Positions 4,849 to 61,280 of a DNA stretch of 64,000 nucleotides are shown here, in pieces. Source of the stretch: Hydrogenobacter sp. T-8 (GTDB lineage: Bacteria > Aquificota > Aquificia > Aquificales > Aquificaceae); the NCBI RefSeq assembly GCF_011006175.1, contig NZ_CP048795.1:62001-126000 (forward strand), read 5' to 3'. The notes beneath the pieces are model-generated. The model saw only the letters and a program-made list of their open reading frames with translations. It ran no database searches and was not told the DNA's origin. Numbering within the stretch: the stretch's first letter is position 1; every line of letters begins with the position of its first letter. The position numbers and the translations under genes are program-made.

Positions 4849-5109
4849 ATGAAAGAGATAGTCTTGTCAGATGGCAGAAAAGCAGTCATAAAAGAAGGAA
4901 AAGGTAGAGACCTTTTCTGGGCTTTTGAAAATGCTACAACTCAAAACGAGATAATAAAGATGCTTGTTATAAGGCTTGTGGAAATAGAAGGCAAGCCAAT
5001 AACAGAGGACGAACTTGAAGACTTACCCATATCAGATACTATAAATCTACTTAATGAAGTAGGCAGACTCATAAGCCCTTTGTCAGTCCAAAGACCGTCC
5101 TCGCAATGA
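4849..5109 (+). CDS. Tail assembly chaperone E-like
   Basis: An 86-residue protein of the P2 gpE/Mu gp41 type (tail assembly chaperone), which binds the tape measure during tail assembly. The pattern KEIVLSDGRKAVIKEGKGRD, a short helix, then IEGKPITEDELEDLPISDTI is characteristic of this family. It sits between tube and tape-measure genes as in other myoviruses. Near its end the codons AGC CCT TTG contain a canonical -1 slippery heptamer (5076-5082) that would join it to the E'-like frame starting at 5106. It is therefore probably made as a short and a long form. Confidence 0.85.
   Translation: MKEIVLSDGRKAVIKEGKGRDLFWAFENATTQNEIIKMLVIRLVEIEGKPITEDELEDLPISDTINLLNEVGRLISPLSVQRPSSQ
5076..5082 (+). 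other. -1 ribosomal slippery site CCCTTTG
   Basis: The heptamer C CCT TTG fits the X_XXY_YYZ rule and lies in the correct register of the E-like frame (codons CCT at 5077 and TTG at 5080). After a -1 slip there is no stop before the E' frame, which closes at 5217-5219, giving a fusion of about 123 residues. In P2, lambda and many other phages the two tail chaperones are made exactly this way. No downstream pseudoknot was identified by eye, so efficiency is unknown. Confidence 0.65.
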
Positions 5110-5219
5110 TTAAACATGGTTTTAGTTATGAAGAGCTTTGCAGTATGCCTATATCAAGCATACGATTTTGGATTAAGGAGCTTGAGGAGTATTATGAAGA
5201 GCTCAGGGAAGATATCTAA
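5106..5219 (+). CDS. Tail chaperone second frame, E'-like
   Basis: A 37-residue open frame in the -1 register relative to the E-like gene, starting in an ATGA overlap with its stop. The sequence (IKHGFSYEELCSMPISSIRF, then WIKELEEYYEELRED) has the Phe-Ser...L..M....I.FWI.E pattern of GpE/E'-type proteins, in which a short hydrophobic turn is followed by one charged helix. It is most likely read as the C-terminal extension of the upstream chaperone through the slippery site at 5076, although independent initiation is possible. Its last 17 bases overlap the antisense gene at 5203-5439. Confidence 0.7.
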   Translation: MIKHGFSYEELCSMPISSIRFWIKELEEYYEELREDI

Positions 5220-5439
5220 GGTTTTTCCTGAGCATAGCCTTTATTCTTTTTCTCATCTCCCTTCTTTTAGAGCGTTCTGCAAACTTTCTTTTAAGTGGAG
5301 GAAATGCAAACTTGTAAACCACATACGACAACATAAGAACAGGAGCAAGTATAAAGGCAATAAACAGACCTATTATTCCCAAGACTGGGAAAAAGTAAAA
5401 AATCGCAATCAAAATAGCCCAGGATATGAGACCAGGCAT
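5203..5439 (-). CDS. Small basic membrane protein, antisense in tail operon
   Basis: A 78-residue protein encoded against the phage genes, between the chaperone and the tape measure. It has a hydrophobic N-terminal half with one or two membrane segments (LISWAILIAIFYFFPVLGII and a following stretch to about residue 45) and a strongly basic helical tail ending RREMRKRIKAMLRKNLRYLP. It is collinear without gaps and about 60% identical by eye with the 78-residue protein at 12595-12831, including start position and last six residues, so the start at 5439 was chosen by that alignment (a longer frame begins at 5481). Holin-like traits (short, membrane, basic tail) are present but no lysis genes are nearby. 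Its function is unknown. Confidence 0.75.
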   Translation of the reverse strand: MPGLISWAILIAIFYFFPVLGIIGLFIAFILAPVLMLSYVVYKFAFPPLKRKFAERSKRREMRKRIKAMLRKNLRYLP

Positions 5440-5456
5440 AATAAGGATTATAAACC

Positions 5457-7847
5457 ATGGACTACACAATAGCAATAACATTACAACTTATAGACAACTT
5501 CACAAGACAGATAACTCAATCTACATCAGCGGTGCAAGATCTCTCCAACCAAGTCAAACAAACAAAAAAACTATTTGATGAACTAAAAGAAAGCGTAAAA
5601 TCCGTCGTAAGCGTTGCAGAGAAGCTCGAAGATATATCTATAAAGAGCCTCCAATTTGGAGCTCCTGCGGTAGCCTTTACAAAAAGCATGGTCGATAGCT
5701 TCAAAGAGCTGGAGCAAGCCAGGACAGAAATGGAAGTTGCTTTTATGACAAGCACCGGAATTCCGAAAGAGCTTGAAGAGATAAACAGACAAGTAGAAGA
5801 GCTTGGAACGATTTTGCCAGGGTCAGCAACAGACTTTTATAAAGTAGCAACAACACTTAAAGCTCTTGGGATGACAGCAAACGAAATAGCAGCAGGAGGA
5901 TTAAAATCTGCTTCTTACGCATGGGTTCTTTTCAAAAACGAAGTAAGCCCAGAGAAAGCAGCAGAATACATGCTTCAATTTGCCAACGCCTTTAAGATAT
6001 CTGCAAAAGAACTAACACCTTTCCTTGATCAACTTCAAAGACTAAAATTTGCAGCAGGTCTAACCCTAACAGAAATATCTTATACAACAAAATACATTGC
6101 AGCAGACATGCAAGCTCTTGGCATACAGGGACAACTGGCTTTTAAATTCATGTCTGCTTGGATAGGCTCTTTGGCACAGGTAGGTTTAAAAGGAGAGTCT
6201 GCGGGGACAGCCATATCCAATATCCTAAGAAGCATACCACAACTTCAAGAAAAGCTAAAAAAACTTCCAGTTAAGCTAAACATAGATGTATCCAGCTTTT
6301 TTGACAAGGATGGAAAGTTTCAGTTGGAGCAATTTTTAATAACAATATCAAAACAGATAAGAGAAATAAAAGACCCACTAAAAAGAGCAGAGATAGTCCG
6401 ACAACTCTTTGATGTAGAAGGAGCAAGAGCTTTCTTACCACTACTTACAGCATCAAAAGAAGAAGCTCTCCAGTATCTCGAAGCCGTGAAAGACAAAATG
6501 ACTCTTGAAGAATATCAAGCCCTAAAAAAGCAGATAGAAGAAGGTGGATATACAGGCTTTGAAGCTATGGCAAAGAAGATGGAAGAGCAAGCAAACCTTC
6601 AAGCAAGGATAAACCGAATAATGCAAACTCTTGCCAATTCCATTGAAAGTCTCCAAGGAACATTCACACAATTGTTAGCCACACTTGGCGAAAAATTAGC
6701 ACCAACTCTCAAAAGCCTTGCGGACATTATTAACAATACAATTGGCAATATCATAGATTGGGTAGACCAGCACAAAACTCTTTCAAGCATTATAGTCCAC
6801 ACAGTAGCAGGCATTGCAGGTCTTACATTAGCCTTATCTACTCTCACTCTTGTAGCTGCTTCACTCTTAAAAATTTTCGGGCTTGCCTTTGCACCGTTTC
6901 TTTGGCTTGCAAGAGTTTTACACCTTAAAGCCTTCACGCTTGCCATCTGGAAAAACATCGTAGCCTTTATAGTCTGGGCTCGCACAGGTCAAGCAAGCAC
7001 AGGTTGGCTTAAAACTCTTGACTTTTTACTTTTAAAAACAAAACTTAGAATGCTATCTGCCATATCTGTGATAAAAGCCAAAACCGTGGCACTTTTACAG
7101 TGGACAATAGCCATGTCAAAAGTGGCTTTCGCACACATTCTTGCAGGTCTCAGGAACATGATTATGCTTTTTAGGGCTCTAACAATAGCCTTACTAACAA
7201 ACCCCATTTTCTTAGTAATTACTGCCATAGGCATAGCAATTTGGCTACTATGGAGAAACTGGGACAAAGTCGTAAAGCTCCTTGTGTCCGCATGGAACTG
7301 GCTAAAACAAAGCTGGCAAAGATTAGCACAGTTCCTCATAACATTAAACCCATTCACGGGCATACTCTTAGCTCTAAACAACTTAACACAAAAGCTGTTA
7401 GGGATAAATCTTTACGATGCAGGAGTGAAACTTGTCAAAACTCTCTGGGAAGGTATGAAGTCCTTTGCGAACAAGCCAGTAGAAGAGTTCAAAAACATCG
7501 TGCAACGCATAAGAAACTTGCTCCCCTTTAGCCCTGCAAAAGAGGGACCGCTCAGGGACATACACAGAATAAAGCTGATAGAGACAATAGCACAAAGCAT
7601 AAAGCCACAGCCTCTTATCACAGCTATGAGAAATACTCTCTCTCATATCTCTTTGCAAACGCTTACACCGACAAAACCCGCATTCGCAGGCACAAGCAAT
7701 GCAGTAAATATAAACATCAGTTTCGGTGATATTAAACTTACGAATGCTACCCCGGAGACCGCCAAAGTGTTTGCAAGCGAACTTGAAAAACGAATAAGAG
7801 AAGTTCTAAGAAAAATAGACAATGAACGCTTCAGGAGGGCTTATTAA
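5457..7847 (+). CDS. Tail tape measure protein
   Basis: A 796-residue tape measure that sets tail length and threads the tube. The N-terminal 100 residues are coiled coil (VQDLSNQVKQTKKLFDELKE). Residues about 110-360 match the TP901-type core, with FGAPAVAFTKSM, GSATDFYKVATTLKALGMT and TLTEISYTTKYIAADMQALG patterns. Hydrophobic stretches lie at about 439-482 and 568-603 (a NPIFLVITAIGIAIWLLWRN segment), as usual for membrane-inserting tape measures. The C terminus carries the LLPFSPAKEGPLRDI motif common in these proteins. By length it would correspond to a fairly short tail. Confidence 0.92.
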   Translation: MDYTIAITLQLIDNFTRQITQSTSAVQDLSNQVKQTKKLFDELKESVKSVVSVAEKLEDISIKSLQFGAPAVAFTKSMVDSFKELEQARTEMEVAFMTSTGIPKELEEINRQVEELGTILPGSATDFYKVATTLKALGMTANEIAAGGLKSASYAWVLFKNEVSPEKAAEYMLQFANAFKISAKELTPFLDQLQRLKFAAGLTLTEISYTTKYIAADMQALGIQGQLAFKFMSAWIGSLAQVGLKGESAGTAISNILRSIPQLQEKLKKLPVKLNIDVSSFFDKDGKFQLEQFLITISKQIREIKDPLKRAEIVRQLFDVEGARAFLPLLTASKEEALQYLEAVKDKMTLEEYQALKKQIEEGGYTGFEAMAKKMEEQANLQARINRIMQTLANSIESLQGTFTQLLATLGEKLAPTLKSLADIINNTIGNIIDWVDQHKTLSSIIVHTVAGIAGLTLALSTLTLVAASLLKIFGLAFAPFLWLARVLHLKAFTLAIWKNIVAFIVWARTGQASTGWLKTLDFLLLKTKLRMLSAISVIKAKTVALLQWTIAMSKVAFAHILAGLRNMIMLFRALTIALLTNPIFLVITAIGIAIWLLWRNWDKVVKLLVSAWNWLKQSWQRLAQFLITLNPFTGILLALNNLTQKLLGINLYDAGVKLVKTLWEGMKSFANKPVEEFKNIVQRIRNLLPFSPAKEGPLRDIHRIKLIETIAQSIKPQPLITAMRNTLSHISLQTLTPTKPAFAGTSNAVNINISFGDIKLTNATPETAKVFASELEKRIREVLRKIDNERFRRAY

Positions 7848-9953: not shown

Positions 9954-10241
9954 ATGCCAGCAGTTGTTAGACTTGGAGATATGAGTTGTGGTCATGGCTG
10001 TTTTCCAGCAAGACCGAGCGTGGAAGGCAGTCCAAACGTGTTTGTAAACGGGAAACCAGCACATCGTGTTGGAGATGCTTGGGCTACACATTGCTGTGGT
10101 CCAGCTTGCCATGACGGAGTCGCTTCGTCAGGAAGTGCTACTGTGTTCGTAAACGGAAAACCGCTGTGCAGGGTAGGAGATGCTATAAGCTGTGGAGATA
10201 CAATGTGTGAGGGGTCGGAGAACGTGTTTTGTTGGCGTTAA
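9954..10241 (+). CDS. PAAR-domain spike tip, probably frameshifted at C terminus
   Basis: A 95-residue PAAR protein that would sharpen the tip of the baseplate spike. It shows the repeated layout of the family: VVRLGDMSCGHGCF, SPNVFVNGKPAHRVGDAWATHC, then a second unit SATVFVNGKPLCRVGDAISC and a final GSENVF. His and Cys residues suitable for metal binding are present. The last residues read CWR and stop, whereas the family normally ends VFVxG. Dropping one T from the run near 10227-10230 would restore VFVGVNVN and open the frame well beyond 10241. A recent indel is therefore likely, although the folded domain is essentially complete. Confidence 0.85.
   Translation: MPAVVRLGDMSCGHGCFPARPSVEGSPNVFVNGKPAHRVGDAWATHCCGPACHDGVASSGSATVFVNGKPLCRVGDAISCGDTMCEGSENVFCWR

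Positions 10242-10531: not shown

Positions 10532-10540
<9 letters not shown>
10242..10540. repeat. Repeat-rich non-coding stretch after the prophage
   Basis: No convincing gene is seen. A roughly 21-base motif GTGTTTCAnATTTTTCAAA occurs at 10323-10343 and 10518-10538 in direct orientation and inverted at 10409-10428; GGGG precedes both direct copies, and GTGAAACACCCC (10390-10401) is a further inverted piece. A perfect 14-base inverted repeat, ACACAAGGCTTTGA, has arms at 10368-10381 and 10456-10469. The segment 10357-10382 closely matches part of the leader beside CRISPR array 1 (about 13641). A palindrome GTTAACGTTAAC at 10237-10248 spans the PAAR stop. It could be a phage end, an attachment region or a decayed CRISPR locus. 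Confidence 0.7.
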
Positions 10541-12572
<2,032 letters not shown>

Positions 12573-12594: not shown

Positions 12595-12831
12595 CTAAGG
12601 AAGATATCTGAGGTTTCTCTTGAGCATTGCTCTTATCCTTTTCCTCATTTCTCTTCTTCTGGAGCGTTCTTCAAGTTTTCTTTCAAGCCTTGGAGCTACT
12701 AACCTGTATGCCACATAAAGCAATATAACCACAGGAGCAAGCATAAAGCCCAAAGCCAAACCTATTATCGCTAATATGGGTGCATAGTAAAAGAGTGCAA
12801 TCAAGATAACTAAGGAAATAATTCCAGACAT
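12595..12831 (-). CDS. Small basic membrane protein at CRISPR trailer end
   Basis: A 78-residue protein with an N-terminal hydrophobic half (two probable membrane segments, IISLVILIALFYYAPILAII and GFMLAPVVILLYVAYRLV) and a C-terminal, very basic helix ending RREMRKRIRAMLKRNLRYLP. It is the gap-free paralogue of the antisense gene at 5203-5439. It lies convergent to metG and is read in the same direction as the CRISPR array to its right, starting 63 bases from the last repeat. A very good sigma-70-type promoter sits in that gap. No known family is recognised; a topology with the basic tail in the cytoplasm is inferred from the positive-inside rule. Confidence 0.75.
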   Translation of the reverse strand: MSGIISLVILIALFYYAPILAIIGLALGFMLAPVVILLYVAYRLVAPRLERKLEERSRRREMRKRIRAMLKRNLRYLP

Positions 12832-12864
12832 GGTGCTTTAAACTCCATAGGATGATTGGCACTA

Positions 12865-12893
12865 ACTATATATCTGGCTCTAATATCTGTCAA
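12865..12893 (-). promoter_or_regulatory. Sigma-70-type promoter for the small membrane gene
   Basis: On the minus strand TTGACA (12893-12888) is followed after exactly 17 bases by TATAGT (12870-12865). The -35 hexamer directly abuts the trailer-end CRISPR repeat, which begins at 12894. It faces the 78-residue membrane protein gene, whose ATG is about 34 bases beyond the -10 box. Confidence 0.75.
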
Positions 12894-13519
12894 GTTTCAA
12901 CTCCACACGGTGGATTAGCAACTTGAGAATAATGAGAAAATAATTGAAGAAGAACCACAGTTTCAACTCCACACGGTGGATTAGCAACAATATGCCATTA
13001 GAAGTGATAGAAAACTTTTTGAGAAGTTTCAACTCCACACGGTGGATTAGCAACACAAGCAAGGCAAGACCAAGAGTTTTGCCCTTACTGGTTTCAACTC
13101 CACACGGTGGATTAGCAACCGCGGTGGTGAGAGTGGTTTATCATATAGCGTTTCATAGTTTCAACTCCACACGGTGGATTAGCAACAAGACCTTTAAAGT
13201 GTCCACTGCTAAGGATGTTTTGGAGAAGGTTTCAACTCCACACGGTGGATTAGCAACTTCTTGAAGGTTTAAGCATTATCTTTCTACGTCAGGGTTTCAA
13301 CTCCACACGGTGGATTAGCAACCCCTTACTTACTTTTATGATTAGCATCATATCCTGACGTTTCAACTCCACACGGTGGATTAGCAACAATATGCCATTA
13401 GAAGTGATAGAAAACTTTTTGAGAAGTTTCAACTCCACACGGTGGATTAGCAACACAAGCAAGGCAAGACCAAGAGTTTTGCCCTTACTGGTTTCAACTC
13501 CACACGGTGGATTAGCAAC
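12894..13519 (-). CRISPR. CRISPR array 1, ten repeats, nine spacers
   Basis: Ten identical 29-base repeats, plus strand GTTTCAACTC-CACACGGTGG-ATTAGCAAC, start at 12894, 12960, 13026, 13091, 13158, 13229, 13294, 13360, 13426 and 13491. Spacers are 36-42 bases. Read on the minus strand the repeat ends GGAGTTGAAAC, the usual crRNA 5' handle type, so transcription is inferred leftward with the leader at 13520 onward. Spacers 2 and 3 (12989-13025, 13055-13090) are identical to spacers 8 and 9 (13389-13425, 13455-13490), a two-spacer duplication. No cas gene lies in the window. No spacer match to the prophage was found by eye. Confidence 0.97.
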
Positions 13520-13745
13520 CTCAACTCACCACATAAAGAATAATAAGACATATTTTGTCAAGGGGGCACCCCTCTCAAGTGAAGGTGGTTTGCCAAAAGT
13601 GGCAGGTCCTGCAAGGTTGAGTATGGTATTGTCAAATTTAAACCCTTGAGAGACAAGGCTTTGAGGCTTATGTCATCAAAACATCAAAGCATCACTGCAT
13701 CTTTATGCCAAAACATAAAAGCATAAGGGCATTAAAATATAACCT
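13520..13745 (-). promoter_or_regulatory. CRISPR array 1 leader
   Basis: An AT-rich, non-coding region next to the newest spacers that aligns along most of its length with 61281-61500 beside array 2. Shared elements include the hairpin AGGGG-loop-CCCCT about 45 bases from the array, a minus-strand CCTTGACAAAA motif next to it, TTTAAATTTGACAA (minus strand, around 13630-13643), CAAGGCTTTGAG or its variant, and a run of CATCAAAACATC-like short repeats. The TTGACA elements look like -35 boxes directed into the array; a clear -10 is not obvious here. Confidence 0.7.
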
Positions 13746-60715: not shown

Positions 60716-60800
60716 GCCTATGGTATTTTACCACGCTCTTGTGAGATAAATTAGCAACCAAAAGAAGTGCCTTTTAGGAATGCCAAAAACACAACTTAGC

Positions 60801-61049
60801 TTAGCTATGAGAACCTTGAGAATATGTGGATATCTCCGCCCTCTTTTTGGCTACATAGTCTTGAACTGCCTTACGAAGTGCCTTTTGCTGTGAACGATAC
60901 TTGAGATAAGAACTTATGCCATACGCTACGAGGTAGAGAATTAGGAAGATAAAAAGTGTGTAAAAGGCAATAGGGTAAATAAGAAGCACAAAGGCAAAAA
61001 AGGCTAGGGCAAAAAGGTATAGGGCTATGATGAGCAGAGTAGCAATCAT
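60801..61049 (-). CDS. Small membrane protein at trailer end of CRISPR array 2
   Basis: An 82-residue protein with an almost wholly hydrophobic N-terminal 55 residues (two or three membrane segments; LLIIALYLFALAFFAFVLLI, then FLILYLVAYGISSYL) and a basic helix (KYRSQQKALRKAVQDYVAKK) ending in a polar tail. The overall design resembles the 78-residue proteins at 5203 and 12595, but the motifs differ, so homology is not certain. ATG at 61049 was chosen; TATAAT lies seven bases upstream and no ribosome site is seen, which fits leaderless translation. It is read in the direction of the array on its right. Confidence 0.6.
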   Translation of the reverse strand: MIATLLIIALYLFALAFFAFVLLIYPIAFYTLFIFLILYLVAYGISSYLKYRSQQKALRKAVQDYVAKKRAEISTYSQGSHS

Positions 61050-61120: not shown

Positions 61121-61280
61121 TCTATATCCCTCACAGTGGGCTTAAAACTGAGGTATTAACATGAAAAACGCAGTTGTGAAAAAAATCTCCATCCCTCACA
61201 GTGGGCTTAAAACTTTAGTATCTACACACAACAAGCACTAAGGGAGATATGGTCTCCATCCCTCACAGTGGGCTTAAAAC
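61121..61280 (-). CRISPR. Mini CRISPR array 2, three repeats, two spacers
   Basis: Three 28-base repeats at 61121-61148, 61186-61213 and 61253-61280. The common plus-strand core is ATCCCTCACAGTGGGCTTAA followed by AAC; the second and third begin TCTCC while the first begins TCTAT, so the leftmost copy is degenerate as expected at the trailer end. Spacers are 37 and 39 bases. The repeat differs clearly from array 1, yet the right-hand flank is homologous to the array 1 leader. Orientation (leader right, transcription leftward) follows from that and the decayed left copy. Confidence 0.93.

Follow-up and report, generated by a model that had tools for sequence, protein, structure and literature searches.

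The stretch of DNA analysed here (the window) comprises 64,000 nucleotides of the genome of Hydrogenobacter sp. T-8 (contig NZ_CP048795.1, positions 62,001 to 126,000) and includes the tail genes of a Mu-like prophage, for which a MuA-type transposase, a MuB-type protein, a terminase and a portal are encoded upstream in the genome. The features at the junction between the tail assembly chaperone and the tape measure protein (TMP) of this prophage are as follows:

4849..5109 (+), tail assembly chaperone, E frame (phrog_21320, 3e-11; orthologues in related phages)
5110..5219 (+), end of the E' frame (...FWIKELEEYYEELREDI*), placed by its sequence and its alignment with phage loci L011, L015 and L016
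5203..5439 (-), antisense moron gene, an ORF with homologues at the equivalent place in related phages
5447..5475 (-), promoter-like site TTGCTA-17-TATAAT, with 7 nt between the end of its -10 element and the ATG at 5439; the site spans the TMP start
5457..7847 (+), tail tape measure protein (PF10145, E=5.5e-25; phrog_28, 7e-63)

The first-pass annotation of this DNA had placed the antisense ORF between the tail chaperone and the TMP, with its 3' end overlapping E', and the coordinates agree with that description, the overlap between the two 3' ends being 17 nt. The frame at 5203-5439(-) is open and specifies 78 amino acids; an in-frame ATG at 5481, upstream of the start at 5439, would extend the protein to 92 amino acids. 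As read from the sequence, the 78-residue product is hydrophobic from about residue 4 to residue 45 and ends in a strongly basic tail. When the region was shuffled 1000 times with its dinucleotides preserved, a hydrophobic ORF of this kind appeared on the antisense strand only once, so the frame is not a product of chance. Searches of the Pfam, PHROGs, NCBIfam and PADLOC libraries gave scores at the noise level and matched no described defence or phage family, and an AlphaFold model of the protein (one long helix, pTM 0.36) was uninformative.

The tail module in the window ends after a PAAR-like gene at 10241. A baseplate J-like gene (L192:657-1754(-), G000:C1:44657-45754, G000 being the genome of the window) lies on the opposite strand far upstream of the module, an arrangement that may mean that the prophage has been rearranged or that a second prophage is present. 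Between the tail module and metG, and antisense to the tail genes, is a gene for a lipoprotein-like DUF4352 protein (10532-11080(-)), which could be another conversion gene or simply a host gene.

A second copy of the antisense gene lies beside metG, at the end of a CRISPR array:

12595..12831 (-), host copy at the metG locus, an intact ORF, 63% identical to the phage copy by alignment
12837..12862, terminal CRISPR repeat in degenerate form; 5 nt separate it from the start codon (ATG) of the host copy
12865..12893 (-), promoter-like site TTGACA-17-TATAGT (11/12 match), situated in the last spacer of array 1 and directed into the host copy
12894..13519 (-), CRISPR array 1, with 10 repeats, its leader at the right and inferred transcription leftward, towards the gene

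The chromosomal protein of 78 residues had been described as collinear with the phage product, about 60% identical to it and located beside array 1, and all three points hold: 49 of the 78 residues (63%) are identical in an ungapped alignment, and the repeat that adjoins the gene, although degenerate, scored better than any of 4896 random windows (0/4896 scored as well). The two genes are the only copies of their subfamily in the complete 1.8 Mb genome. Their divergence (dN 0.23, dS 0.87, dN/dS 0.26; p=0.0005 against random substitution) implies that both copies have evolved as proteins. No E' flank can be recognised at the metG copy, which has a repeat, the degenerate one, on one side only; in the sister genome G013 the metG locus contains one repeat of this type and lacks the gene. 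Array 1 itself includes an exact duplication of 161 nt (12960-13120 is identical to 13360-13520), so that two of its spacers are present twice.

When the phage and metG copies (the window pair) were the only queries, direct searches of phage and plasmid collections, IMG/VR and GTDB yielded no relatives. Phage relatives were instead reached through the tail genes and synteny, and the neighbouring tail tube protein, when used as a query, led to more than 60 tail loci. At most of the close loci E' runs directly into the TMP gene, which begins ~375-400 nt after the tube gene. Inserts of ~160-350 nt occupy this junction in the window and at L009/L017, L011, L028/L033/L039/L042, L014, L070 and L121, and each of them holds an antisense ORF for a protein of 59-87 aa that has an extended hydrophobic segment and usually a basic tail. 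For the six inserts tested, such antisense ORFs arose in 0-1.1% of shuffles and the sense strand carried no such hydrophobic ORF. A similar antisense frame, which lacks an ATG, is found at L242, 350-677 nt after the tube gene. Homology among the window gene, the metG copy and the genes of L011 and L028 is firm by profile comparison (window/metG pair against L011/L028: hhalign 93%, E=3.4e-7), and the genes of L009 and L121 are probably homologous to these via L011. At L014 (1394-1654), L070 (5838-6038) and L242, the slot is taken by antisense hydrophobic ORFs with no demonstrable sequence homology, as though the site were shared by membrane morons of unrelated origin.

Independent support comes from 136 Aquificota genomes, in which the window pair was matched best, outside its own genus, by the antisense gene in the tail operon of G110, a Sulfurihydrogenibium; taken together with L121, which is from Thermovibrio, this match indicates that the slot is used across the phylum. 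Phages from three Aquificota families have homologues in this antisense slot. Occupancy is patchy: 10 of 41 distinct loci are occupied and 31 are empty, at least 5-6 gains or losses are required on the trees, and the slot is empty at L015 and L016 even though their tube proteins are 94-95% identical. We considered whether presence of the gene is tied to one TMP clade and rejected this, as no single clade accounts for the distribution. Pseudomonas phages with a long gap between chaperone and TMP have no comparable antisense gene. The window gene is inserted between two genes that are adjacent in relatives, as the empty junctions at L015, L016 and most other loci demonstrate. The first-pass annotation had recommended a search of phage genomes for the gene at this position, and homologues were found in the equivalent antisense slot; the pattern that it had named as contrary to its proposal, recent paralogues with no phage relatives, did not appear.

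The -10 element of the antisense gene is flanked by the ATG of that gene and the start of the TMP. Seven phage lineages were compared, and in five of them (the window phage, L011, L028 and its kin, L009 and L014) a spacing of 6-7 nt separates the ATG from the -10 element of the best sigma-70-like site upstream, from which leaderless mRNAs are predicted; taken singly, several of the sites do not exceed chance, and the point of note is their common spacing. The gene had been credited with a promoter of its own, and at the level of sequence it has a predicted one, in a position repeated in other phages. A simple consensus scan of the minus strand downstream (5000-5203) detected no terminator-like site. 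As the late operon reads straight across the antisense gene, lytic transcription should silence it. The antisense orientation, the promoter-like site and an insertion point that is fixed, though only patchily occupied, in related phages together support the reading of the gene as a moron. The noncontiguous operon of Tha and Ith in S. aureus phages resembles this arrangement, in that an antisense overlap acts there as a lysogeny/lysis switch for a defence gene (PMC11087260), but the antisense gene in that system is the inhibitor, whereas the antisense gene of the window would itself be the exclusion gene.

A further copy of the gene lies at the far end of the window, near accD and a second CRISPR array:

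60797..60905 (+), E' relic overlapping the accD copy; the frame is open here and has stop codons in G013 and G003
60804..61049 (-), second host copy, beside accD, with homology to the L009/L017 phage antisense gene
61121..61280 (-), second CRISPR array, with 3 repeats, the terminal one ~70 nt from the gene

The first-pass annotation overlooked this third, distant member of the family. The accD copy of the L009-type gene is found in genomes G000, G003 and G013, at ~70 nt from the terminal repeat in G000 and G013 (in G003 the contig stops at the gene), and no such gene lies directly upstream of accD in the other members of the genus examined (G004, G005, G006 and G010). A relic of the TMP start upstream of the accD copy was sought and was not significant. 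The accD copies exhibit weak constraint (dN/dS 0.17-0.5, on few changes), and their antisense frame remains open in G013 and G003, the genomes in which the E' frame has acquired stops.

The dN/dS of 0.26 for the phage and metG copies and the decay of the overlapping E' frame indicate, at the sequence level, that selection acts on the protein. These same observations bear on the idea that an antisense RNA is the active product, which would block tail gene expression of a superinfecting or spontaneously induced phage and leave the ORF secondary. The position of the gene over structural genes fits such a role, and there is a precedent in STnc6030 of prophage BTP1, an antisense superinfection-exclusion RNA with a transcript over structural genes (PMC7067206); the window locus differs from it in having a conserved protein. 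Given this protein-level constraint, the retention of the ORF in host copies while the E' complement decayed, and the preservation of the same topology and basic tail in divergent phages, we think it unlikely that RNA is the active product. A lytic or virion role, as a holin/antiholin-like protein or a membrane factor for tail assembly, appears still less probable: the product is indeed a small hydrophobic protein with a basic tail, and some holin and spanin profiles gave weak scores, but these are at noise level, the gene is absent from most close relatives and is transcribed against the late operon, and such a role would leave the maintained host copies unexplained.

The third host locus is at nadB. 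The nadB arrays of G000 and G013 are orthologous, with leader and trailer flank in common. The G000 array has five repeats and four ordinary spacers; in G013, phage-homologous DNA lies between the terminal repeat and the next repeat. The corresponding segment of the window is:

5170..5457, segment homologous to the phage insert of G013, the counterpart of which (L007:9323-10547) is broken by an IS

In all, the G013 insert comprises ~288 bp of phage DNA, which runs from the last part of E' through the antisense gene as far as the start of the TMP; the IS broke it later, and 66 bp of the phage sequence are missing. Both ends of the phage homology coincide with repeat boundaries, and the repeat is a genuine CRISPR repeat that is associated with other arrays in both G000 and G013. 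Cas1 and Cas4 are present in the two genomes. Like an ordinary spacer, the phage DNA lies exactly between repeats on both sides in a real array; it departs from one in its length (~288 bp vs 36-38 bp) and in having an entire gene inside. On its sequence, the nadB copy of G013 can be recognised as a giant spacer carrying a gene, and its exact boundaries favour integration as an oversized spacer. We found no report of a gene-sized phage spacer in the literature searched, the coverage of which was incomplete. A long "spacer" in G012 proved to be a run of N and was discarded.

Host copies are confined to three close species, at the metG, nadB and accD loci, and two of the three loci keep phage E' sequence. 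The presence of the phage slot in three families, the narrow range of hosts and the E' relics together point to transfer from phage to host, and the gene, as judged from these sequences, is a phage gene. The first-pass annotation had called it a host-type gene, a claim not supported in view of the homologues in the antisense slot across three families and the E' relics at two of the three host loci; its suggestion of a phage-carried mimic of a host protein is not supported either, as the transfer went the other way. That two chromosomal copies occur in one genome might be taken to mean that a host gene was taken up by a phage; with host copies in three close species only, phage copies in one slot in three Aquificota families and phage E' sequence in the host copies, we regard such uptake as very improbable.

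At all three host loci the gene is found at the trailer end of an array and on the strand inferred to be transcribed with the array; other array ends in G000, G010 and G012 adjoin ordinary host genes. A role in phage-host conflict near CRISPR had also been proposed, and what favours it is this position alone. A spacer of G010 (L197, G010:C12, reverse-complement position 1815) matches the baseplate J gene at L192:984-1020 in 34 of 37 nt, and this match to a gene upstream of the prophage suggests that the CRISPR systems of the genus probably target such phages. The metG and accD copies could reflect events similar to that at nadB, with a decayed outer repeat, or other recombination at array ends. 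Because the metG copy has neither an E' flank nor a far-side repeat, a spacer can be demonstrated at only one of the three host loci, where the copy is broken. The association with CRISPR might be passive, with fragments joined to array ends by illegitimate recombination and tolerated there without a role in immunity, as the IS-broken nadB copy of G013 and the presence of repeats on both sides of only one copy might suggest. Against this stand the recurrence at three different loci, all trailer ends and all on the array strand, the exact repeat boundaries in G013, and the promoter-like site and purifying selection of the metG copy, and we consider a passive link doubtful. A somewhat better prospect, which we offer tentatively, is that in these bacteria an entire exclusion gene of a phage is captured by a CRISPR array, retained at its trailer end as an oversized spacer and expressed as a protein, so that an array would store protein-level as well as RNA-guided immunity.

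By analogy with known systems, the most likely function of the phage gene is superinfection exclusion, aimed at DNA entry or at the TMP. HK97 gp15 is a superinfection-exclusion protein with a predicted inner-membrane location, and hybrids of HK97 that have a different tail tube and TMP escape its action (PMC10883804). As with the window gene, for which a hydrophobic span at residues 4-45 is encoded beside the TMP, the HK97 gene specifies a small predicted inner-membrane protein between a frameshifted tail chaperone and the TMP, and is annotated as a moron; unlike it, the HK97 gene is on the sense strand, encodes 62 aa and belongs to a siphophage, whereas the window gene has the antisense orientation and belongs to a Mu-like phage whose tail is of the contractile type. 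Sequence homology between the two proteins is not detectable, and for this reason we propose that the window protein may work like gp15 and do not file it as a member of that family. Tab of phage JBD26, a tail-assembly blocker, is likewise a small moron product of a Mu-like phage with an activity linked to the TMP (PMC10884400), but its gene is located between terminase genes in the late operon.

Our preferred explanation, to which we give about an even chance, is that the phage moron specifies an inner-membrane exclusion protein made in the lysogen, and that the host copies are phage-derived genes at array ends that have been kept as immunity. In the lysogen, a leaderless promoter of its own would drive synthesis of the small protein, and late-operon transcription across the gene would silence it. 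Its position and topology, and the example of HK97 gp15, suggest that superinfecting phages might be excluded through genome entry or through the tape measure of related phages. The host copies derive from such phages and occupy the distal ends of CRISPR arrays; by its sequence, at least one was incorporated as a giant spacer of ~288 bp between repeats, and the selection on the intact copies suggests that these might be maintained as chromosomal protein-level immunity.

A 2020 study stated that no virus had been isolated from the Aquificota (PMC7689252). The genes described here constitute a concrete candidate family of superinfection-exclusion genes for phages of hot-spring Aquificota. They also reveal that genes of the phage exclusion type and the ends of CRISPR arrays are repeatedly linked (three loci, in three close species), the cases including a gene-sized spacer. 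If the host copies protect the cells that carry them, CRISPR arrays would offer hosts a way to capture ready-made protein immunity from their viruses.
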